Below are positions 629 to 19,021 of a DNA stretch of 21,819 nt, in pieces. The stretch's first letter is position 1. The number at the start of each line of letters is the position of its first letter. The DNA comes from a virus, in the IMG/VR virus record IMGVR_UViG_3300034198_011312, positions 1 to 21,819 of that record; one strand, written 5' to 3'. Made by a program: the position numbers and the translations under genes. The notes under the pieces are model-generated. The model had not been told where the DNA came from. It made no database searches and worked only from the letters and a program-made list of their open reading frames with translations.

Positions 629-1339
629 TTAGTCATTCCACCATGTTGACCAAGGGGCCTTAGGGTCTTCTTTTTCTACAGTCTCAGAAACGCCAGTGTA
701 TGCAACATGGATTGTCACGGTTGCGTCTTGGTCGTAATCTGTCCAGTCGCCCTCGTTGCTGTATACAAACATGCTGATGATTTCATCTGGGTTAAGGATG
801 GCCATATTTGTCTTGTACTTGTTAGCAGCAAACTGACCACTGCTCCAGCCATTATTTCCCCAGTATGGGTTATGGTCGGCATCTAGCGCTGGGGCAAAAC
901 CAGTTGATGAGCGGAACGCTTGGGAATTGTCATAGTAATTGTTGATGTATTGCGTTGTTGCATCTTTGAACATGCCAGCAGGCGCATCTTCTGGAAGACC
1001 GAGCCAAATGGTTGGCTTGAACTCATCGCTACCGTAAACTTCTCCTGTCTGGCTCTCTGGTTCGTCGTAACCAAAGAACGGTGCCCAGTCTGTCGGTTCG
1101 TCAACATCAGAAAGAACAGTACGAGGAGACTTTGACTTTTGCGCTGAAAGTACCAATGTTCTTCCAGCGTCTTCAAACAAATCGCCGTCAAAGGTTCCCG
1201 TAAGCATTCTTCTATCTGCAGTGAACCAGATACCCTCAATTTGGACCTTGAAGGGGAAGGACACATTAATAAACGAGTTGTTAAGGTTCCCAACCATATA
1301 GTCGTAGGTAACGATTGATGGTGCGATAATTCCAGACAT
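629..1339 (-). CDS. Hypothetical phage protein, 236 aa, Trp/Tyr- and Asp-rich
   Basis: The ATG at 1339 is preceded on the minus strand by a strong AGGAG Shine-Dalgarno sequence six bases away, so the start is well supported. The protein is acidic and rich in aromatics, with many Asn, Gly and Asp residues (for example the NNGWSSG and STWWND stretches, the latter at the C-terminus). I see no catalytic motif, signal peptide or transmembrane segment. The composition suits a secreted or virion-surface beta-structured protein, but I do not recognise the family. It is the first gene of the leftward unit and starts 62 bases from the divergently oriented RuvC-like gene. A structural or decoration role is only a guess. 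Confidence 0.75.
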   Translation of the reverse strand: MSGIIAPSIVTYDYMVGNLNNSFINVSFPFKVQIEGIWFTADRRMLTGTFDGDLFEDAGRTLVLSAQKSKSPRTVLSDVDEPTDWAPFFGYDEPESQTGEVYGSDEFKPTIWLGLPEDAPAGMFKDATTQYINNYYDNSQAFRSSTGFAPALDADHNPYWGNNGWSSGQFAANKYKTNMAILNPDEIISMFVYSNEGDWTDYDQDATVTIHVAYTGVSETVEKEDPKAPWSTWWND

Positions 1340-1374
1340 TGGGTCTCCTATTGGTTATAAGCAACAAAAAAATA

Positions 1375-1380
1375 ATACTA
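1375..1380 (-). promoter_or_regulatory. Candidate -10 box of the leftward promoter
   Basis: On the minus strand these bases read TAGTAT, a good TAnnnT -10 hexamer. Transcription starting about 7 bases downstream would give a roughly 28-base leader with the AGGAG site before the ATG at 1339. No convincing -35 is visible. The box forms a perfect 6-bp inverted repeat with the rightward box at 1389-1394. Confidence 0.4.
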
Positions 1381-1385
1381 CAAAC

Positions 1386-1394
1386 TGCTAGTAT
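1386..1394 (+). promoter_or_regulatory. Candidate extended -10 box (TGC-TAGTAT) giving a leaderless RuvC-like transcript
   Basis: The sequence TGC-TAGTAT matches an extended -10 element, and seven bases separate it from the ATG at 1402. This is the spacing at which transcription would begin on the A of the start codon. No Shine-Dalgarno sequence precedes that ATG, which fits leaderless expression as is common in actinobacteria. There is no recognisable -35. Confidence 0.45.
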
Positions 1395-1401
1395 CGCCCG
1401 C

Positions 1402-1917
1402 ATGAATCTAATGGGTCTAGACCTTTCTTTAACCTCTACCGGAATATCTGTGAATGAAAAGACATTTGTGATTGCTTCTAAGCAAAAAGGTGCCGCACGT
1501 CTTTCTGAAATTAGCCAATTAGTGCTTGATTCATGTATAACCCTTGACGTCAGGTGTGTAATTATTGAAGGTTATTCATTTGCTTCCAGAAATAGCCAGG
1601 CTCATAGCATTGGTGAACTGGGCGGAGCGGTCCGTATGAGGCTCTATGAGAACAGCATTGACTATGTAGATGTACCCCCAACATGCCGAGCAAAGTTTGC
1701 TACCGGGAAAGGGAATGCTTCTAAAGGTGAAGTTATTTCAGCGGTGTCAGCAAAGACCAGGAAGGTATTTTCCGGAGGTGGTGGAAATGACGAATGTGAT
1801 GCATGGGTTTTGGAGCAGATGGGTCTTGCCAAACTTGGGGAGTCAAAATGGGATTGGTCAAAAGAACAACTTTCTGCTTTAAGCAAAGTAGAGTGGGGCT
1901 TACTATTCACCGCATAA
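1402..1917 (+). CDS. RuvC-like Holliday junction resolvase (RNase H fold)
   Basis: This 171-residue protein has the layout of RuvC-type resolvases, which cut four-way DNA junctions using two metal ions. The N-terminal strand reads GLDLSLTSTG with the first catalytic Asp at residue 7. A second acidic motif, VIIEGYSF, places Glu at residue 56. The C-terminal motif NDECDAWVL supplies Asp130 and Asp133. All expected acidic residues are therefore present. In phages such proteins resolve branched replication or packaging intermediates. I chose the ATG at 1402; an in-frame ATG at 1411 is the alternative, while extension upstream to 1339 would run through the divergent promoter region and is unlikely. 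It is the first gene of the rightward block, with the next ORF 10 bases downstream. Confidence 0.85.
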   Translation: MNLMGLDLSLTSTGISVNEKTFVIASKQKGAARLSEISQLVLDSCITLDVRCVIIEGYSFASRNSQAHSIGELGGAVRMRLYENSIDYVDVPPTCRAKFATGKGNASKGEVISAVSAKTRKVFSGGGGNDECDAWVLEQMGLAKLGESKWDWSKEQLSALSKVEWGLLFTA

Positions 1918-1927
1918 CAGGGAAAAA

Positions 1928-2275
1928 ATGATATCTAGAAACGCCCCCATCAGTCAAGTTGACATTGAGCACGAACTCCTTCGTTTATTAGAGATGCTGG
2001 AATCAGAGACCGAGGCTTTTGAAAAACTTGCAGAGGACTCAGCAAAAAAAGAAGCCCTTTATAAATCAAACTGGGCAAAAGAATATCTTTCAGCAAAAGG
2101 TTCAATCAAAGAACGAGAGGCTTGGGCTGAATACAAACTTGCAGATGAAAACTTTGACTTTAAGATTGCTGAAGCGCTTCTTAAATCAAAACGTGAGAAG
2201 TTGCTATCTTTGCGGACTTCTATTGACGCCATGCGAACCCTGAATGCAAACGTGAGAGTGCAGGTAACACATTGA
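1928..2275 (+). CDS. Coiled-coil phage protein of unknown function, 115 aa
   Basis: The protein is almost wholly helical and charged, with heptad-like Leu/Glu/Lys spacing from about residue 10 to 105, so it should form a long coiled coil or helical hairpin. The ATG follows a good AGGGA site about 5 bases upstream. It sits directly after the RuvC-like gene and its TGA overlaps the TTG start of the ParB-like gene, so the three are translationally coupled. Similar helical proteins with a 'ReaWAeyk'-type central segment are, from memory, common beside resolvase or recombination genes in actinophages, but I know of no assigned function. Confidence 0.75.
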   Translation: MISRNAPISQVDIEHELLRLLEMLESETEAFEKLAEDSAKKEALYKSNWAKEYLSAKGSIKEREAWAEYKLADENFDFKIAEALLKSKREKLLSLRTSIDAMRTLNANVRVQVTH

Positions 2276-3054
2276 TTGACAACATTTCACCAGGTCTTGA
2301 ATCTCTATGTATCAACATTGAGCAACTTGTTCCGCTTAACAACAACCCTCGCAAGGGCAACATTGGGGCAATAACTGCTTCTTACTCAGAGTTTGGTCAA
2401 GTAAAACCAATCGTTGTAAAACCAAACGACGATGGGACATTTACAGTGATTGCAGGAAATCATCAACTTGAAGCAGCAAAGCGCCTCGGGTGGACAAAGA
2501 TTGCCGCCGTGCAAATGGATGTAAACAATGAACGAGCAATTGCTTTTGCTCTTGCTGATAACCGCACTATGGAGATGGGTCACACAGACCAGTCTCTTCT
2601 TAATGGTCTCCTTGTTGATGTATCAGAGTTTTATCCTGAGTTATTTGAAAACCTTGGGTGGGACGAGTTTGAAATGGCCGCCATTGAGGAGTCTCATTAC
2701 TCGTCTGAGGTTGTTTCACCGATTGCCGATGCATATACAACTCCAGTAATGAGAGATTTATCAAACGGTCCTTCGGAAGTAAAAATTACTGTTGAAGAAT
2801 CAGATGATGGAGACAGGCGAATTGTTGCTGGTGGAGATGTGGACCATAACAAGGTTGCTGTTAGCGGAAGCACAATAACTGCTGGTGGGGCATCTTCTCA
2901 GGCTGTAGTTCAATACACGATTGTATTTGACAATCCTGAACAGCAACGCCGCTGGTATGACTTTGTTCGTTACCTGCGCAATGACCCAGGCATTTCAGGA
3001 ACAACTACTGCGGAAAAGTTAATTGATTTTATTGATATGCATACAGAGGTTTAA
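2272..3054 (+). CDS. ParB/sulfiredoxin-fold protein
   Basis: The N-terminal 120 residues form a ParB-like domain. The pieces visible are the N-P-R motif near residues 26-28 (NNNPRKG), a phosphate-binding type loop AGNHQLEAAKRLGW near residues 61-74, and the following AFALADNRT helix. In many phage relatives the loop reads GNHR; here the Arg is Gln. Such domains bind nucleotides or DNA, and some have nuclease or NTPase activity. Residues about 130-215 look like a loosely ordered linker. The last 45 residues (FDNPEQQRRWYDFVRYLR onward) form a second small domain often seen at the end of phage ParB-like proteins. The start is TTG at 2272, overlapping the previous stop as TTGA, with a GG-containing site 7 bases upstream. 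Confidence 0.8.
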   Translation: MIDNISPGLESLCINIEQLVPLNNNPRKGNIGAITASYSEFGQVKPIVVKPNDDGTFTVIAGNHQLEAAKRLGWTKIAAVQMDVNNERAIAFALADNRTMEMGHTDQSLLNGLLVDVSEFYPELFENLGWDEFEMAAIEESHYSSEVVSPIADAYTTPVMRDLSNGPSEVKITVEESDDGDRRIVAGGDVDHNKVAVSGSTITAGGASSQAVVQYTIVFDNPEQQRRWYDFVRYLRNDPGISGTTTAEKLIDFIDMHTEV

Positions 3055-3234
3055 GTGAAAATTCATAACCCCGATAACGTATATGACCTGCAGAAAATTC
3101 TTTATCAACTTCTTCGCAGTAAACGAAAATCACGAACAAATTCTGTTCTTCTGAGCAACTCTCTTATGCACGATATTTCCGAGAGAATTATCCGTCTTGA
3201 GAATAGAGTCCAAGAACTAGAGATAGATAAATGA
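3055..3234 (+). CDS. Small helical protein, 59 aa, GTG start
   Basis: A GTG codon directly follows the stop of the ParB-like gene, with an AGAGG ribosome site six bases upstream, and the frame runs 59 codons to a TGA that overlaps the next ATG as ATGA. The coupling at both ends argues that this is a real gene although it lacks an ATG. The protein is basic in the first half (RSKRKSR, residues 21-27) and amphipathic helical in the second half, ending in a short coiled-coil-like segment (ISERIIRLENRVQELEIDK). It may be an adaptor or DNA-contacting partner of its neighbours. I do not recognise the family. Confidence 0.65.
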   Translation: MKIHNPDNVYDLQKILYQLLRSKRKSRTNSVLLSNSLMHDISERIIRLENRVQELEIDK

Positions 3235-4373
3235 CTAGGCAGAGAATGTTTCTTGACATTGATTGTGTTGAGGCCGCAAGACAGAGAATAAGGCACGTTT
3301 ATGATACTTTTGATACTGTTTGCGTTCAGTTTTCTGGAGGAAAAGATAGCACAGCAGTGCTTTACTTGGCTAAAGAAGTTCATGAAGAACGAGGACTCGG
3401 ACCAGTCAAAGTAATATTCCGAGACGAAGAGATGGTTAGTCCATTGGTTCTTGACTATGTAAACAAAGTCCGCAACTACGACTGGGTTGATATGGAGTGG
3501 TACTGCCTTCCGTACAGTTCAGAAGTTTGGGTTCTTGGCGTTAGAGAGCCTGTAGTTATGTGGAACGCCAATCGTGAGCGAGAAGGTCGCCGCGTACGAC
3601 CAATACCATCATGGGCAATTACTGCTGAACACTTTGGGTTAACTGCGGATGAAGGTCTTCCAGAGAGAATTGACTACTACACCATGCAGGGCAAGACTGG
3701 TTCTGTTGCTTTTATTACCGGAGTTCGGGCTAATGAGTCAATGGTGCGTTATAGGTCTCTTGTGCAGAAACTGCACGAGAACTACATAGTTTCTCCATAC
3801 AAAATGAAGAAGTCAATACCTCTTAAATTTGCAAAAGTTATTTATGACTGGCAGACAGATGACGTACTCAAGTTCATCACAGAAGAACACGGCGCAGACT
3901 ATTGCGAGTACTATGACCTTGCTGCTCTCACTGGTTCAAATACCCGAGTTGGTATTCCTCTCCACTCTGTTGCCATTAGACGAATAGGTGACGTTGTGGC
4001 TACTGAGCCAGACTTCTATGACAGGTTGTGGGAGATTTGGCCAGACATTGATGCACAACGCAGGTGGTGGCCTGATTTTGACATTGAAAAACTAATTAGC
4101 CGATATGCGGATGAAGGTTTTGAAGGTGCAAAAGAATGCATACGGGAAAATATTCTTGGTGATGAATTGCAACGTAGAGCAAAAGCATATGTTTCAGACT
4201 TTAGAAAAAAACATATTCTTGACCCATACTCGTACCCCATTAACTGGATGATTAGAAATCTTCTACTCAACGAAATAGCCGTAACGTCAGCCGCACCTGT
4301 TGGGCCTAAAACTAGGGCTCACACAATCAGGCAAAAAGCAGCAGAACAAGAACTGGAAAATAATGCAAATTAA
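3231..4373 (+). CDS. PP-loop ATP pyrophosphatase, PAPS reductase/IbrA-like
   Basis: The protein has the P-loop-like PP-motif SGGKDS at residues 35-40 inside VQFSGGKDSTAVLYLA, the hallmark of N-type ATP pyrophosphatases that adenylate a substrate. Further family signs are FRDEEM after strand 2, the GVRANES..R segment in the middle and IYDWQTDDV, typical of PAPS reductase-like and IbrA-type proteins. The true PAPS reductase C-terminal ECGxH motif and paired Cys iron-sulfur motifs are not visible, so sulfate reduction is unlikely. At 380 residues it is longer than assimilatory PAPS reductases (about 240) and has an extra helical C-terminal half. It overlaps the preceding gene by 4 bases and the following IbrB-like gene by 11. 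The IbrA/IbrB pairing is known from Escherichia coli, where the proteins regulate immunoglobulin-binding genes; the reaction is not known to me. Confidence 0.85.
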   Translation: MTRQRMFLDIDCVEAARQRIRHVYDTFDTVCVQFSGGKDSTAVLYLAKEVHEERGLGPVKVIFRDEEMVSPLVLDYVNKVRNYDWVDMEWYCLPYSSEVWVLGVREPVVMWNANREREGRRVRPIPSWAITAEHFGLTADEGLPERIDYYTMQGKTGSVAFITGVRANESMVRYRSLVQKLHENYIVSPYKMKKSIPLKFAKVIYDWQTDDVLKFITEEHGADYCEYYDLAALTGSNTRVGIPLHSVAIRRIGDVVATEPDFYDRLWEIWPDIDAQRRWWPDFDIEKLISRYADEGFEGAKECIRENILGDELQRRAKAYVSDFRKKHILDPYSYPINWMIRNLLLNEIAVTSAAPVGPKTRAHTIRQKAAEQELENNAN

Positions 4374-4911
4374 TTATATAAATATTGACGAACTAGTTGT
4401 TGCCCCATTTAAGGCAACCTATATCTTGCGTCCTGACTTGCTTGTTTTGTCTAAGTCTCTTTATGATTTTGGATTTATTTACCCACTCCTTGTACAAAAG
4501 TCAACAAATGTTGTGATTGATGGAAACGAACGGTTAATGCTTGCTCGTGGTCAGAAACAAATTCGTGAAAAAATAGGAGAAGAAATTCCTGTTGTATTTG
4601 TCGATTGCGACAGTATTGACGCAAAGTTGATGCATATCCGCATGAATCGTGGCAGAGGAACAATGCTCGCTAAACCGGTGTCAGCAATTATTAGAAACAT
4701 TATGCAATCCAGAAAATATAAAAAAGAGGACATGGATTCCATTCTTCAAATGAAGCACGACGAGTACAATTTAATGATTGATGGTTCTCTTTTAAAGCAC
4801 CGAAAAGTATCTGAGCATAAATATTCGCGTGCTTGGGTTCCGGTTGAGGCTCCAGCAGGTACTCTTGACTCTGGTCCAGTAACGGAGACACCTCCTAACT
4901 CAGATAGGTAG
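4363..4911 (+). CDS. IbrB-like ParB-domain protein
   Basis: This 182-residue protein shows the ParB-like loop VIDGNERLMLARGQ around residues 48-61 and the characteristic HIRMNRGRGTMLAKP segment of phage and IbrB-type ParB proteins. A helical tail follows, and the last 30 residues are Pro/Ser/Thr-rich and probably disordered. I place the start at ATG 4363, which has a GGAAA site upstream and overlaps the PP-loop gene by 11 bases. A longer reading from an ATG at 4300 would lie wholly inside the upstream gene and is less likely. Pairing of an IbrA-like PP-loop protein with an IbrB-like ParB protein is a recognised arrangement and suggests the two act together, perhaps with the ParB part presenting DNA or a nucleotide substrate. 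Confidence 0.8.
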   Translation: MQINYINIDELVVAPFKATYILRPDLLVLSKSLYDFGFIYPLLVQKSTNVVIDGNERLMLARGQKQIREKIGEEIPVVFVDCDSIDAKLMHIRMNRGRGTMLAKPVSAIIRNIMQSRKYKKEDMDSILQMKHDEYNLMIDGSLLKHRKVSEHKYSRAWVPVEAPAGTLDSGPVTETPPNSDR

Positions 4912-5166: not shown

Positions 5167-6054
5167 ATGCTGGTATCAGTACAAGAACTAATTACTTACA
5201 TGGATATCCGCTTTTCCCTGCGTCAGCAAGATGCGGCTGAACTCATTCTTGCAGGACTTCAAAGCGAACTTGAGTCTTACCTTAGAAGACCGATTGAAGT
5301 CACAGAGTTCACCGAAGAGTACAAGGTTCCTGCAAATAACCTGGCTATGCCGATGTCTTCATTTTTCTACCAACAGAACCTGGAGTCTTCGTTTTATGCT
5401 GGGCAAGGCAATACGTCTCGCTCTGTAACAAACTACGCAATGCCCCCAGAGACGGTCTATTTAAGAAACTCTCCGGTGTCAAAAGTTTTGAGTGTTTCTA
5501 TTCAAAACCAATGGACTACCCCGACTTATCTTGGTGAAGCGATTAAGCGAACCGCGACTGTAACGGGTGCTACTAAAGTTGGCAACAAGGTTACATTCAC
5601 GTCAAATGGACACAAGTTAACGGTCGGTCAATACGTGACAATTAAGAATGCAGACCCTATTGGGTACAACGTTATAAACAAGAAAATTGTTGAAGTTACT
5701 GCTAACTCTTTTGTTATTGACGGCGTTACAGAGTCAATTGGTGCATATGTTTCCGGCGGAAACGCAGAAGCGGTTGGGACAAACTATACGGTCAGAAGAT
5801 ACGGTGTTGATGTCTACAATATGGTTGCTGACGACGTTATTACAATCAACTACGAAGCAGGACTTGATGGAGACACGGTACCTGTATTTAAGTTGTTAAT
5901 TCTCCGAGCCGCAACTCGTGAAATGCAAAACATGCACGACGATGTTGTTGGCGTCAAGGACTTAAACCCAAGAGGTGTTGCTCCAATGGAGACTGGTTTT
6001 ACAGATAGAGAATTGGCTTCAGTAAAGAAATATAAGCGCGTCAGGGTTGCATAA
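5167..6054 (+). CDS. Head-tail connector (adaptor) protein with inserted beta domain
   Basis: The helical N-terminus (VSVQELITYMDIRFSLRQQ onward, residues about 3-50) and the C-terminal helix that includes LLILRAATREMQNMHD match gp6-like head-tail adaptors, which ring the portal and receive the tail. Such adaptors are usually 100-200 residues, but this one has 295. The extra length lies between them and includes a beta-rich insert at about residues 135-200 (VTGATKVGNKVTFTSNGHK and onward), resembling the small repeated beta domain seen in several phage structural proteins. An AGGGG ribosome site lies six bases before the ATG. The TAA overlaps the next ATG as TAATG, as expected for a neck operon. 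Role by fold and position; not verified by search. Confidence 0.65.
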   Translation: MLVSVQELITYMDIRFSLRQQDAAELILAGLQSELESYLRRPIEVTEFTEEYKVPANNLAMPMSSFFYQQNLESSFYAGQGNTSRSVTNYAMPPETVYLRNSPVSKVLSVSIQNQWTTPTYLGEAIKRTATVTGATKVGNKVTFTSNGHKLTVGQYVTIKNADPIGYNVINKKIVEVTANSFVIDGVTESIGAYVSGGNAEAVGTNYTVRRYGVDVYNMVADDVITINYEAGLDGDTVPVFKLLILRAATREMQNMHDDVVGVKDLNPRGVAPMETGFTDRELASVKKYKRVRVA

Positions 6055-6506
6055 TGGCCGATGACGTAGTCGTACGCATTAAAGTTCACTCCCGTGAAGT
6101 GAAACGAATGCTTAACAAAATGGAAAAAAACGCACGTAGTTTTAAACCCGTATTTGTAGAGGCAGAAAGAACTTTAAAAAGAGCCTACACCGCTAACTTT
6201 GCTTCTGAAGGTGGAGCAGTTGGTGGGTGGGCACCGCTTGATGCTGACTATGCGGCATGGAAAGCAAAACACTATGGCATGGCTCCGAAACTCGTTCAAA
6301 ACGGGCAACTTTTCCAAAGTATTTCAAACTTGAACGTACGAGACATTGGGGATACTAAAGCCGTTTTTGGGACAGACCTTCCTATTGCAAAATTTCATCA
6401 ATACGGAACGTGGAGCATGCCTGAAAGGCGTCTCATTTTTGAACCACCGATGTTTGCTAGAAATCTTGCTCAAGATGCTGCCGACCATGTTCTCAAGGGG
6501 GCCTAA
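6054..6506 (+). CDS. Virion morphogenesis / tail completion protein (Mu gpG / P2 gpS-like)
   Basis: The 150-residue protein shows the typical pattern of this family: a helical N-terminus, then GGWAPLDADYAAWKAK, LVQNGQLFQSI, and FHQYGTWSMPERRLIFEPP. In related phages the product helps finish the tail and joins it to the head. It starts at an ATG overlapping the upstream TAA and its own TAA overlaps the next ATG, both as TAATG, so the connector, this gene and the next are translationally coupled. Length fits the family. The match is by remembered motif pattern, and I judge it strong. Confidence 0.75.
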   Translation: MADDVVVRIKVHSREVKRMLNKMEKNARSFKPVFVEAERTLKRAYTANFASEGGAVGGWAPLDADYAAWKAKHYGMAPKLVQNGQLFQSISNLNVRDIGDTKAVFGTDLPIAKFHQYGTWSMPERRLIFEPPMFARNLAQDAADHVLKGA

Positions 6507-16569: not shown

Positions 16570-18201
16570 ATGTTTACGTATGAATCACTTCAAATAGGAA
16601 ATTTGAGTAGAAAACAAATGGCGCTTGTTGCGTCAAACCTAATGAGCATTTCAGTCAATTATTCAATTGATATGGCAAATCAATTAACAATAACCATAAT
16701 TGACCCTGGTTTTGAAATGGCAATCAATAACTATTTTCAAGTGGGCGTTGACGTAGTTTACGAAACAACACAACTTCTTATGGGGAACATACCTGGCGGT
16801 GAAGATATTGCGCTAACAGGGAGAATGCGCTACATATATGAAATGGTTGAAGTAAGTGTCGCTCAGTCTGGAGCAGCGTCTCCGATTTGGACTATTCAGG
16901 CAATGCCAAAAGCGGTACAACAAATGAAAAGAGATAAAACTACAAAAATAGGAGGCTCCGGCTATATGTACGCATATAACGTGGCCAAACATTTTGGACT
17001 CAAATTTGTTGGAGAAAATAGCGCAAGAATAAAATCACCAAAGAAAAACTCCGGCGCTAATCAAGCAGATTCTGTTTGGACACGATTAACAAGCATTGCA
17101 TCAGAGTCTCAGTACGTGTGTTTTGTCATGGATGGAACTTTATATTTTGCTACAGAAAAATGGCTTCTCTATAAATGGGGAACTCATCGACAGCCTGGAA
17201 CAACTAAAAAAGACAAAAACGGCAAAGTCATTATAAATAAAAAAACAAAACTTCCTGAAATGAATGCTGCAAAATACTGGATACCGATGAATTATACAAA
17301 TACTGATTCGTATTCAAGAGAATTTCAAGTTCTCTCACTTCCTTCAATGAGAAAATCAGACAATGACCCTCGGCAAGGAGAAGGAACCCTGAGCGTTGAT
17401 AGGAATAATGGAGTTCAACTTAGACCTGGTATGACAATAAAAATTGACAACATACCTGGGTTTAAGGGGAGTTACTTAATTACAGAAGTTACTTTTAATG
17501 AACAAACGACAGAACCAGTATCTGTGTCTTTTAGAACTCCGGAACTTCTTAAAGTAAACGGCAAAGAGCCCAAAATACCAATGCTTCCTATTGGCAAAAT
17601 ATATAATAGTGACTATTTTATTGCAAATGCACGTGTTGGAGAGTCTTCCGTTGGTCTTCCTGTATATAACGAGTTAAGCCCTCCTCTTCAGTTTTTAGGT
17701 TCAACAATTAATCCAGTAGGGCCAAGTGTTGCTGGAAAGATTCCAAACTCAAGAAGACCTGATGTCTATGGATACCTTTCTGAAGTGTCACCATCATCAA
17801 CAAAACCTGTTTTATTAGCAGATTTTTTTGAACTTGGAAATATAGATATGTGGAATAGACCGGTCTACGTGAACGGTACTCGCCCTAATGTTGAAGCAAT
17901 GCTGTCTAAAACGTTCATTCATGCTGATGTAATTTTTTCAGGAGATGACGCTATCTCAGTGTGGGTCATTCTGGAAAGAGTATGGTGTCAGGGCGGAGCA
18001 CCTACGTTAATATCACAAGCAGATGCAATCACAAAATACGAAACAACAGGAGAGCATCACGGCATTCTTCGTTCAGAAATTGCAGCAACTAATTTTGAAT
18101 GGATTCTTAAAGATATTTGGGGTCCAGTTATTATGAAAAGATTTCCGAAGTCGTGGAAATTGATTTTGCAAAACGAAGTTGAATACATACCGAATTGCTA
18201 A
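16570..18201 (+). CDS. Baseplate hub protein (gp27/gpD-like) with C-terminal add-on domain
   Basis: The first 340 residues are beta-rich and follow the gp27-like hub pattern: an N-terminal strand set ([20 protein letters not shown]), a segment around [16 protein letters not shown], then [16 protein letters not shown] and late strands before [12 protein letters not shown]. Hub trimers sit at the tail tip and carry the spike. After a linker, residues about 415-520 look like a separate domain with [13 protein letters not shown] (423-435) and [19 protein letters not shown] (480-498). From memory this resembles a small domain often fused to phage tail or lysis proteins. The stop is one base before the next ATG. 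The ATG has an AGG site about 11 bases upstream, longer than usual, and also a TATGAT just before it. Confidence 0.7.
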
Positions 18202-18202
18202 T

Positions 18203-19021
18203 ATGACAAATTACGTTAACAGAAATAAAGCATCTTCTCACCCCACAAAACCTGGCGGTATATACGTTGGCGTAGTAAAGTCGGTAACTCCGGACGGAAA
18301 AGTATTTGTTCAAATTCCTTATCTCGGAAGCACTGTCGGTCCCCTTCGTGTTCTTAACAGCAATGTAAATAATCCATTAACCGTTGATACGCAAGTTTTA
18401 TGTGCAGACATAAATATGAGTTCATCAGACATGTATGTTCTTGGTTACGTAAATCCAAGCGACGCCCCTGTTGGTGTTTCTGGACCTTCTGGACCTTCTG
18501 GACCTGCCGGTGGTCCAACTGGCGCTACGGGCGCAACTGGTGCTACAGGACCTACAGGAGTGACTGGACCTTCTGGACCTTCTGGACCTTCTGGGCCTAC
18601 GGGCGCAACTGGTGCTACAGGACCTACAGGACCTTCTGGACCTTCTGGACCTGCCGGTGGTCCAACTGGCGCTACGGGCGCAACTGGTGCTACAGGACCA
18701 AGCGGAGACTGGTCAACACCACAGTCAATTGTTGCGTTTTCTTCTGCAACCGATGGGATGGGGGTCCTTCTTTCAAGCACCCCTGGAAAATTAATCTACA
18801 ATACTGGTTCACAGACTATAAACATAACAGGTGATACGAACTTTACTGTCGGTCAACAGGTTGACTTACTTCGTAGGCATACTGGAACCTTTACGGTCGC
18901 CGCCTTCTCCCCTGCAACGCTTCACGGCACCCCTGCTTTAACTTTACGAGCGCAGTGGTCAGCCGCATCAATTATCTGCATATCCGCAAACGAATATGTT
19001 CTCATGGGAGACCTTGGGTAA
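18203..19021 (+). CDS. Baseplate spike protein: OB-fold, collagen-like stalk and beta-rich tip
   Basis: The start is the ATG one base after the hub stop; an in-frame TTG at 18179 lies inside the hub gene and is not used. Residues about 15-90 ([20 protein letters not shown] and onward) form the gp5/gpV-like OB domain that sits on the hub. Residues 91-167 are 25 Gly-X-Y triplets of [12 protein letters not shown] type, broken by two extra glycines, and should form a collagen-like triple helix. The last 100 residues (about 169-272) are beta-rich and resemble the C-terminal cap of phage fibres. The protein is likely a trimer piercing or touching the cell surface. The DNA repeats within the stalk make copy number changes plausible. 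Confidence 0.8.
18482..18699 (+). repeat. Collagen-coding direct repeats (71 bp perfect copies 147 bp apart)
   Basis: Bases 18482-18552 recur exactly at 18629-18699. The offset is 147 bases, 49 codons, so the reading frame is kept. A shorter part of the unit also recurs at about 18597. The repeats lie entirely inside the collagen-like part of the spike gene. Confidence 0.9.

Follow-up and report, generated by a model that had tools for sequence, protein, structure and literature searches.

Results

A compact gene cluster in a viral DNA fragment

The window, a 21,819-nucleotide stretch of viral DNA (IMG/VR record IMGVR_UViG_3300034198_011312), encodes a ParB-like protein (ParB1), a small helical protein (p59), an IbrA-type PP-loop protein and an IbrB-type ParB-fold protein in a tight operon that is a genuine module (Table 1). 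The four open reading frames lie as described in an earlier note made from the letters of this DNA: ParB1 adjoins the 59-aa frame with zero gap, the 59-aa frame overlaps IbrA by 4 bases and IbrA overlaps IbrB by 11 bases. The start of ParB1 in turn overlaps by 4 bases the preceding gene for a 115-aa protein, which is absent from that note. This protein was detected in 53 of 84 sources, mostly upstream of ParB1, and a homologue (1.3e-8) also precedes a ParB–TET pair in another phage record. We do not count the neighbouring RuvC-like resolvase among the cassette genes; RuvC is found close to the cassette in Phlyer, Godines, Stinger, Quesadilla and prophi79-1 too. Downstream of IbrB, the window continues with head–tail genes.

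Table 1. Genes of the cassette and its upstream neighbour in the window.
Feature	Position	Strand	Remarks
RuvC-like resolvase	1402..1917	+	phrog_159 2e-31; neighbour
115-aa protein	1928..2275	+	phrog_1389, E 3e-12; cassette accessory
ParB1	2272..3054	+	TTG start; ParB_N 2e-9, phrog_723 2e-36
Small helical/coiled-coil protein, 59 aa	3055..3234	+	GTG start; homologues, dN/dS
IbrA-type PP-loop protein	3231..4373	+	phrog_2302 subfamily; PAPS_reduct 2e-9, phrog_2302 3.5e-75
IbrB-type ParB-fold protein	4363..4911	+	phrog_2159 1e-21; ParB fold (AlphaFold2)

Conservation of the module

Relatives of IbrA are encoded on at least 578 viral contigs, and co-occurrence was assessed in a set of 80 viral contigs, isolated phages and 80 genome loci. 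IbrB lies directly 3′ of IbrA in 75 of 84 sources and in 68 of 72 genome and phage loci, and ParB1 lies upstream of IbrA within the phage clade of the window. On nine contigs from two or three lineages IbrA stands alone; of five such records that were searched, three have ParB1 elsewhere and none has IbrB. The earlier note had looked to conserved co-occurrence of all four genes as support for a module. IbrA and IbrB do occur together nearly always, and ParB1 joins them within the clade, but the 59-aa protein does not follow suit. Its close homologues are confined, besides the window's own copies, to loci L010/L011 and L020–L022, and other phages have at its position different small coiled-coil frames that end in ELRAEVxRLSQIAKY. 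Strict conservation of the 59-aa protein was accordingly rejected: the slot keeps a small coiled-coil protein whose family varies. Homologues occupy the same place and the frame is under purifying selection (dN 0.16 and dS 0.73 against L020), which makes it a gene rather than a chance open reading frame.

IbrA has a PP-loop and lacks the reductase cysteines

The window protein has all the motifs of the IbrA family (SGGKDS, D.E, GxRxxES..R, DW..D and R239), with SGGKDS at residues 35–40, RDEE at 64–67, GVRANES..R at 164–173 and an invariant C225. Together with the placement of IbrB 3′ of IbrA, these motifs bear out the original assignment of the pair to IbrA and IbrB (DUF3440 YbdN and ParB-like YbdM), with which it also shares the order of PP-loop and ParB-fold genes. 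Position 225 is Cys in 27 of 27 sequences of the window's clade and Asn in 69 of 69 from the other IbrA subfamily, and we therefore regard the clade as a sister subfamily of IbrA proper (YN..YD subgroup), set apart by C225 and RDEE as against N225 and xDxE. C92 is nearly invariant in the window's subfamily. The window further differs from YbdN/YbdM in its upstream ParB1 and small coiled-coil gene, instead of which the sister loci have SNF2 helicase (13 of 72) or GNAT-like (24 of 72) neighbours.

The catalytic CGLH cysteine of sulfonucleotide reductases is absent from the window's IbrA and from its clade, and the protein has neither Fe–S nor paired cysteines. Single IbrA and IbrB sequences matched nothing in the PDB sequences, and we therefore searched with an IbrA profile, to which the closest solved sequences are FAD synthase (3e-9) and CysD (1e-7). 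FAD synthase (FMN adenylyltransferase) is also the closest fold match, at Z 12.5 and 3.4 Å over 169 residues, in a search that rests on a predicted IbrA structure of modest confidence (pLDDT 64.8); APS reductase and CysD trail FAD synthase by only about 1.5 Z, and the match in sequence and model is a likeness only. FAD synthase and CysD are both adenylyl-transferring enzymes. The presence of CysH/APSR among the top folds reflects a PP-loop-type alpha/beta fold and by itself indicates no function.

Two ParB-fold proteins lacking the ParABS nucleotide-binding box

ParB1 comprises a ParB N-domain (approximately residues 14–140) and a C-terminal 'QYTIVFD..QQRRWYDFVRYLR' domain (approximately residues 210–258). 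The N-domain belongs to the same family as the gene-1 ParB of phages that carry DpdA or TET, and N-domains of this type give HMM and BLAST matches (E 1e-11 to 1e-22) to ParBs beside DNA-modifying enzymes. The C-terminal domain is strong in IbrA-linked ParBs and at most weak elsewhere, being absent or weak in the ParBs of Hendrix and Bacillus 022DV001; the idea that it is unique to partners of IbrA was dropped in view of weak matches in 4 of 83 other ParBs.

IbrB has no Pfam match and instead matches the ParB-like phrog_2159. It carries DGNER and NRGRG motifs and a conserved tail (YSRAWVPVEAP...PPNxDR), and its AlphaFold2 model (pLDDT 82) has a ParB fold, with Z of about 12–13 against ParB, Noc and KorB (KorB, 12.8); the likeness to KorB and Noc spans 137 residues including the middle domain. 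The ParABS nucleotide-binding box GERRxxA is found neither in ParB1, which has GNHQLEAA where Noc has GERRWRA, nor in IbrB (DGNERL), and in isolated phages existing annotations place no ParA partner next to the cassette.

ParB1-type proteins accompany DNA-modifying enzymes

In the Bclasvirinae, the gene-1 ParB of Phlyer is 47–58% identical to that of the others over about 130–170 aa and its TerL 58–62% over about 320 aa, with RuvC beyond; what lies between ParB and TerL changes. Phlyer has IbrA–IbrB there, Godines and Quesadilla have DpdA–QueC–QueD–QueE–FolE and Stinger has a TET/JBP-type protein (the Mycobacterium phages compared included Godines, Stinger and Adawi), and Hilltopfarm, of another genus, has DpdA–QueD–QueE–FolE. 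Genes 1–5 of Phlyer (ParB, small genes, IbrA and IbrB) follow the order of the window, and its IbrA is about 34% identical to ours; terminase comes directly after IbrB in Phlyer, where the window has its head–tail genes. The DNA of Rosebush, a phage of the Godines type, contains dPreQ0 at about 28% of G (PMC6884629). This preQ0 system has the same ParB beside the enzyme and the same locus by TerL and RuvC, but uses a guanine transglycosylase and preQ0 synthesis genes rather than a PP-loop enzyme, and its ParB is without the IbrA-linked C-terminal domain.

A separate, independent scan using ParB patterns extended this partnership: at least 34 of 41 non-redundant ParB1-type loci have a DNA-base-modifying enzyme fused or adjoining (N6/N4-MTase, C5-MTase, TET/JBP, DpdA and Mom were counted), against a background of 37 matches among 1,564 ORFs for the same enzyme models. 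One 156-kb record (G005) has both ParB1–IbrA–IbrB and a p115-like–ParB–TET set, 50 kb apart; another locus (L189) has ParB, a C5-MTase and an amidotransferase-like protein; and some phage IbrAB loci adjoin the methyltransferase phrog_11826. Within the IbrA records themselves, PF01702 (TGT) had no match in 20. Because Pfam does not recognise phage DpdA, the search was repeated with a DpdA profile, which again matched 0 of 20 and detected two positive controls. N6/N4-MTases were found in 0 of 11 IbrA records, and C5-MTase, ThyA and Mom in 0 of 20. TET was clear in 1 of 20, with its own second ParB, and weak in one more, so modification genes are not strictly mutually exclusive.

Discussion

Since relatives of ParB1 stand beside or within known DNA-modifying enzymes, the operon probably marks phage DNA chemically, and we favour, on sequence grounds, the reading of ParB1–p59–IbrA–IbrB as a predicted base-modification (hypermodification) cassette. 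Position next to such enzymes is no proof of chemistry. The earlier note's suggestion of a nucleotide- or DNA-modifying step with recruiting ParB proteins is the best reading, and the positional replacement and the partner-enzyme scan now back it more strongly than the note could. The note had also called this the best candidate for an undescribed system: we found no described IbrA/IbrB chemistry, no published tie to DNA modification and, as far as found, no report of DNA modification in any IbrA phage, although the genes are already annotated as IbrA/IbrB or PAPS reductase in many phages. The gene families are known; assigning them to DNA modification is new, as far as found.

We propose that ParB1 and IbrB, with ParB folds of a presumed NTP-binding type, would hold DNA and hand it to IbrA. 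IbrA would attack ATP at the alpha-phosphate and transfer AMP to, or activate with AMP, a group on a DNA base or on a molecule to be joined to the base, paralleling the chemistry of FAD synthase and CysD. The C-terminal domain of ParB1 may serve IbrA as an adaptor, further contacts probably coming from the small coiled-coil protein and from the tail of IbrB, and the modified phage DNA would resist host restriction. Two systems offer partial parallels. In CmoX/AMP-forming ligase cytosine hypermodification, ParBc genes lie beside AMP-activating phage base-modifying enzymes (PMC12783734), but those enzymes (C5-MTase fold and AMP-forming ligase, with no PP-loop) are unrelated to IbrA. CasCysH of type IV-B CRISPR, for which nucleic-acid AMPylation has been proposed (PMC8175902), resembles IbrA in being described as a CysH-like PP-loop protein without the catalytic cysteine; its partner is the Csf RNP, whereas that of IbrA is ParB.

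Alternatively, IbrA and IbrB could be transcription regulators, the phage pair turning on late genes. Many records are annotated as 'co-activators of prophage gene expression', the KorB/Noc likeness of IbrB takes in the middle domain, and in E. coli ybdNM is under CitR control with YbdM a predicted transcription factor (PMC9068703). We nevertheless think this unlikely, as it leaves unexplained both a conserved ATP-cleaving PP-loop enzyme and the base-modifying partners of ParB1-type proteins elsewhere, and expression changes could arise indirectly from a modification system.

Thiolation of DNA or a nucleotide by IbrA (base thiolation or a phosphorothioate-like change) is improbable. Profiles of DndC, BrxP and LarE weakly match the PP-loop region, and two cysteines, C225 and C92, are fixed or nearly so in the window's subfamily. 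However, Asn replaces C225 throughout the sister subfamily, and a Cys occupies the equivalent place in FAD synthase, an enzyme that transfers no sulfur. DndC membership was rejected on the missing cysteines and a score of 27–31 bits against a curated cut-off of 290. The sulfur link that the earlier note had considered possible is therefore not sustained: catalytic and Fe–S cysteines are lacking, and the nearest relatives transfer adenylyl groups.

IbrA and IbrB might instead form a toxin–antitoxin, defence or anti-defence pair, with IbrA AMPylating a protein under the control of IbrB. This would suit the AMP chemistry of a PP-loop, and a Listeria DUF3440–ParB pair is a guilt-by-association candidate in TASmania (PMC7020466); we rate it very unlikely, because PADLOC matches are limited to the shared PP-loop and ParB domains and the exchange with DpdA and TET genes would go unexplained. 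Already disfavoured, and barely credible despite automatic annotation, the Pfam PAPS_reduct match and reports of phage genes so labelled as auxiliary metabolic genes (PMC8879888), is a true PAPS reductase in sulfate assimilation: CysH membership was rejected on the absence of CGLH and a score far below the NCBIfam cut-offs, and IbrA is inseparable from its ParB-fold partners.

A bolder form of the base-modification reading, which we put forward tentatively and at slightly less than an even chance, is that IbrA–IbrB–ParB1 represents a new hypermodification class, in which a DNA-acting PP-loop enzyme transfers adenylyl groups to make a never-seen base and ParB is a docking platform common to most phage base-modifying enzymes. 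A DNA-modifying role of any kind is less obvious for the many IbrAB pairs that are chromosomal in enterobacteria (ybdNM, adjoining citR) (PMC9068703).

IbrA/IbrB pairs occur widely among phages and bacteria, and IbrA-family genes are frequently annotated as PAPS reductase and tallied among the auxiliary genes of sulfur metabolism. Should the proposed role prove true, a further modification chemistry would come to light, a common annotation would need correcting, and the fusion of ParB domains to phage methyltransferases, long a puzzle, would be accounted for. As a general rule, we propose that a phage ParB-like gene outside ParABS may mark a DNA base-modification locus.

Organization and conservation of the cassette

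The window corresponds to a 21.8-kb IMG/VR virus record. ORF calling returned four ORFs and their overlaps at exactly the positions that an earlier note had proposed from sequence alone, and the preceding 115-aa gene (p115) adds a further 4-base overlap with ParB1. ParB1 matches ParB_N in Pfam and phrog_723 in PHROG, and the PP-loop protein, IbrA, matches PAPS_reduct and phrog_2302. The earlier description of the last protein, IbrB, as ParB-like is borne out by a PHROG match and by its AlphaFold2 fold; a Pfam search of IbrB gave no match. The IbrB model (alignment of 29 relatives, pLDDT 82) matches the structures of ParB, Noc and KorB, so IbrB has the ParB fold, to which it adds a tail that is conserved but unfolded.

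Scanning IMG/VR with the PP-loop protein yielded at least 578 relatives. The 80 best of these, together with two isolated phages and the window plus its copies, made up the 84 sources that were compared. IbrB follows IbrA in 75/84 and ParB1 was detected in 66/84, contig ends cutting many of the remainder. The nine sources without IbrB, where IbrA is solitary, represent two or three lineages; ParB1 lies elsewhere on the record in three of the five IbrB-less records searched. Conserved co-occurrence, which the earlier note named as support for a module, was found for IbrB and ParB1, whereas the 59-aa protein is kept in position only: among these 84 sources, close homologues occur, besides the window's own copies, only at loci L010/L011 and L020–L022. 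Elsewhere other small coiled-coil ORFs fill the slot and extend into the start of IbrA; ELRAEVxRLSQIAKY is the terminal sequence of many. With dN at 0.16 and dS at 0.73 against L020, the 59-aa ORF evolves as a protein-coding gene. In genomes and other phages the IbrA–IbrB pair is retained in 68 of 72 loci, ParB1 being restricted to the phage subfamily; the third partner at these loci is a SNF2 helicase (n = 13) or a small GNAT-like protein (n = 24).

Features of the window and of related loci
Locus	Position	Feature
Window	2272-3054 (+)	ParB1
Window	3055-3234 (+)	59-aa ORF
Window	3231-4373 (+)	IbrA
Window	4363-4911 (+)	IbrB
Window	1928-2275 (+)	p115, phrog_1389
Window	18179-19021	Protein with collagen-like repeats, within tail genes
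L175 (Stinger gene 2)	776-1744	Labelled queuine tRNA-ribosyltransferase (phrog_6059); Tet_JBP 4e-6, below Pfam cut-off
L184	6567-7526	Same label (phrog_6059); Tet_JBP 1.4e-5, below Pfam cut-off
L236	5902-7318	ParB immediately 5′ of Mom protein (PF25680 1e-48)
L229	6001-7551	ParB fused to N6/N4-MTase-like part and PLP-enzyme domain
L182	5998-7524	ParB–TET/JBP fusion
L260 (G005, second cassette)	1155-4306	p115-like, ParB, TET/JBP, 282-aa protein (glycosyltransferase-like by eye; no Pfam match)
L088 (Gaia gene 104)	5317-6216	Ectoine synthase (cupin)–ParB fusion directly after IbrA; PF06339 1e-32
L092 (XCL1123)	5311-6241	Neighbouring genes with similar ectoine synthase/ParB annotation
L052	9143-10192	About 1 kb separating IbrA from IbrB; encodes 349-aa protein with HESTH, zincin-like motif by eye
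L076		About 1 kb separating IbrA from IbrB
L047, L049, L051, L066, L067, L069, L080–L082		Lone IbrA, no IbrB, facing genes of opposite orientation

ParB1-type genes accompany DNA-modifying enzymes

A search with ParB1 matched phage DNA methyltransferases, in their ParB portion, and the first gene of many Mycobacterium phages. Within the Bclasvirinae, the gene-1 ParBs are homologous (Phlyer against others, 47–58% over about 130–170 aa), as are the TerLs (58–62% over about 320 aa). Between these two genes lie IbrA–IbrB in Phlyer, DpdA, QueC, QueD, QueE and FolE in Godines and Quesadilla, and a protein labelled queuine transferase that matches Tet_JBP in Stinger; in Hilltopfarm, which belongs to another genus, this position is filled by a 45-aa gene, DpdA, QueD, QueE and FolE. 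In Rosebush DNA, dPreQ0 replaces about 28% of guanines (PMC6884629). The Stinger and L184 proteins have no similarity to DpdA of Godines, and are probably TET/JBP oxygenases that carry the queuine label in error.

Scanning IMG/VR independently with the ParB alignment gave 80 loci, 41 of them non-redundant at 80% identity. At 34 or more of the 41, a recognised DNA-base-modifying enzyme (N6/N4-MTase, C5-MTase, TET/JBP, DpdA or Mom) adjoins or is fused to ParB, and two further loci carry a GNAT-ATPase protein; as background, the same enzyme models match 37 of 1,564 other ORFs of at least 150 aa. The L229 and L182 fusions are single-chain versions of this pairing. One 156-kb record, G005, carries both a p115-like–ParB–TET series and p115–ParB1–IbrA–IbrB. 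A 2025 paper reported ParBc genes adjoining phage CmoX and AMP-forming ligases and assigned no role (PMC12783734).

ParBs of 62 IbrA-phage loci and of Phlyer, Shrooms and prophi79-1 match the ParB1 C-terminal domain strongly; the DpdA- and TET-linked ParBs of the isolated phages lack it. This domain looks like an IbrA adaptor, although not strictly so, because 4 of 83 other ParBs match it weakly.

Predicted chemistry of IbrA

Invariant or nearly invariant in the IbrA family are SGGKDS, D65, E67, W111, R123, GxRxxES..R, D206-W207, D211, Y228 and R239. The catalytic cysteine that PAPS reductases carry in CGLH is missing from the alignment of IbrA's clade. Searching the PDB with a 12-sequence profile retrieved human FAD synthase (3e-9), CysD (1e-7) and then CysH (2e-6). 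Fold comparison, resting on a modest model (pLDDT 64.8), was consistent with this ranking and gave FAD synthase at Z 12.5 (r.m.s.d. 3.4 Å, 169 residues) and APS reductase and CysD at Z about 11. Position 225 is Cys in 27/27 of the window clade versus Asn in 69/69 of IbrA proper, and FAD synthase has a Cys in the same 'YC.LYD' context. Taken together, the proximity of FAD synthase and CysD, the missing CGLH and the context of C225 favour AMP transfer or AMP activation rather than sulfonucleotide reduction. CasCysH of type IV-B CRISPR, for which an AMPylation role has been proposed (PMC8175902), likewise lacks the cysteine.

A possible role in DNA modification

IbrA and IbrB genes are known and already annotated; in the literature searched, which excludes preprints and most subscription journals, we found no paper linking them to DNA modification, a role that we infer from position and sequence. 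Most likely, ParB1 (with IbrB) would bind DNA and present it to IbrA, which, using ATP, would adenylylate or activate an acceptor. In binding DNA, ParB1 may act as an NTP-dependent clamp whose nucleotide boxes are altered (ParB1 has GNHQ in place of GERR). The acceptor may be a base, a phosphate or else a small molecule that is added. In distant relatives, a phrog_11826 methyltransferase adjoins IbrA or IbrB (Shrooms, prophi79-1 and Bacillus 022DV001), a GNAT adjoins IbrA in Hendrix, and the ectoine synthase–ParB fusion beside IbrA is a possible clue to the chemistry; such neighbours hint that further chemistry may be involved.
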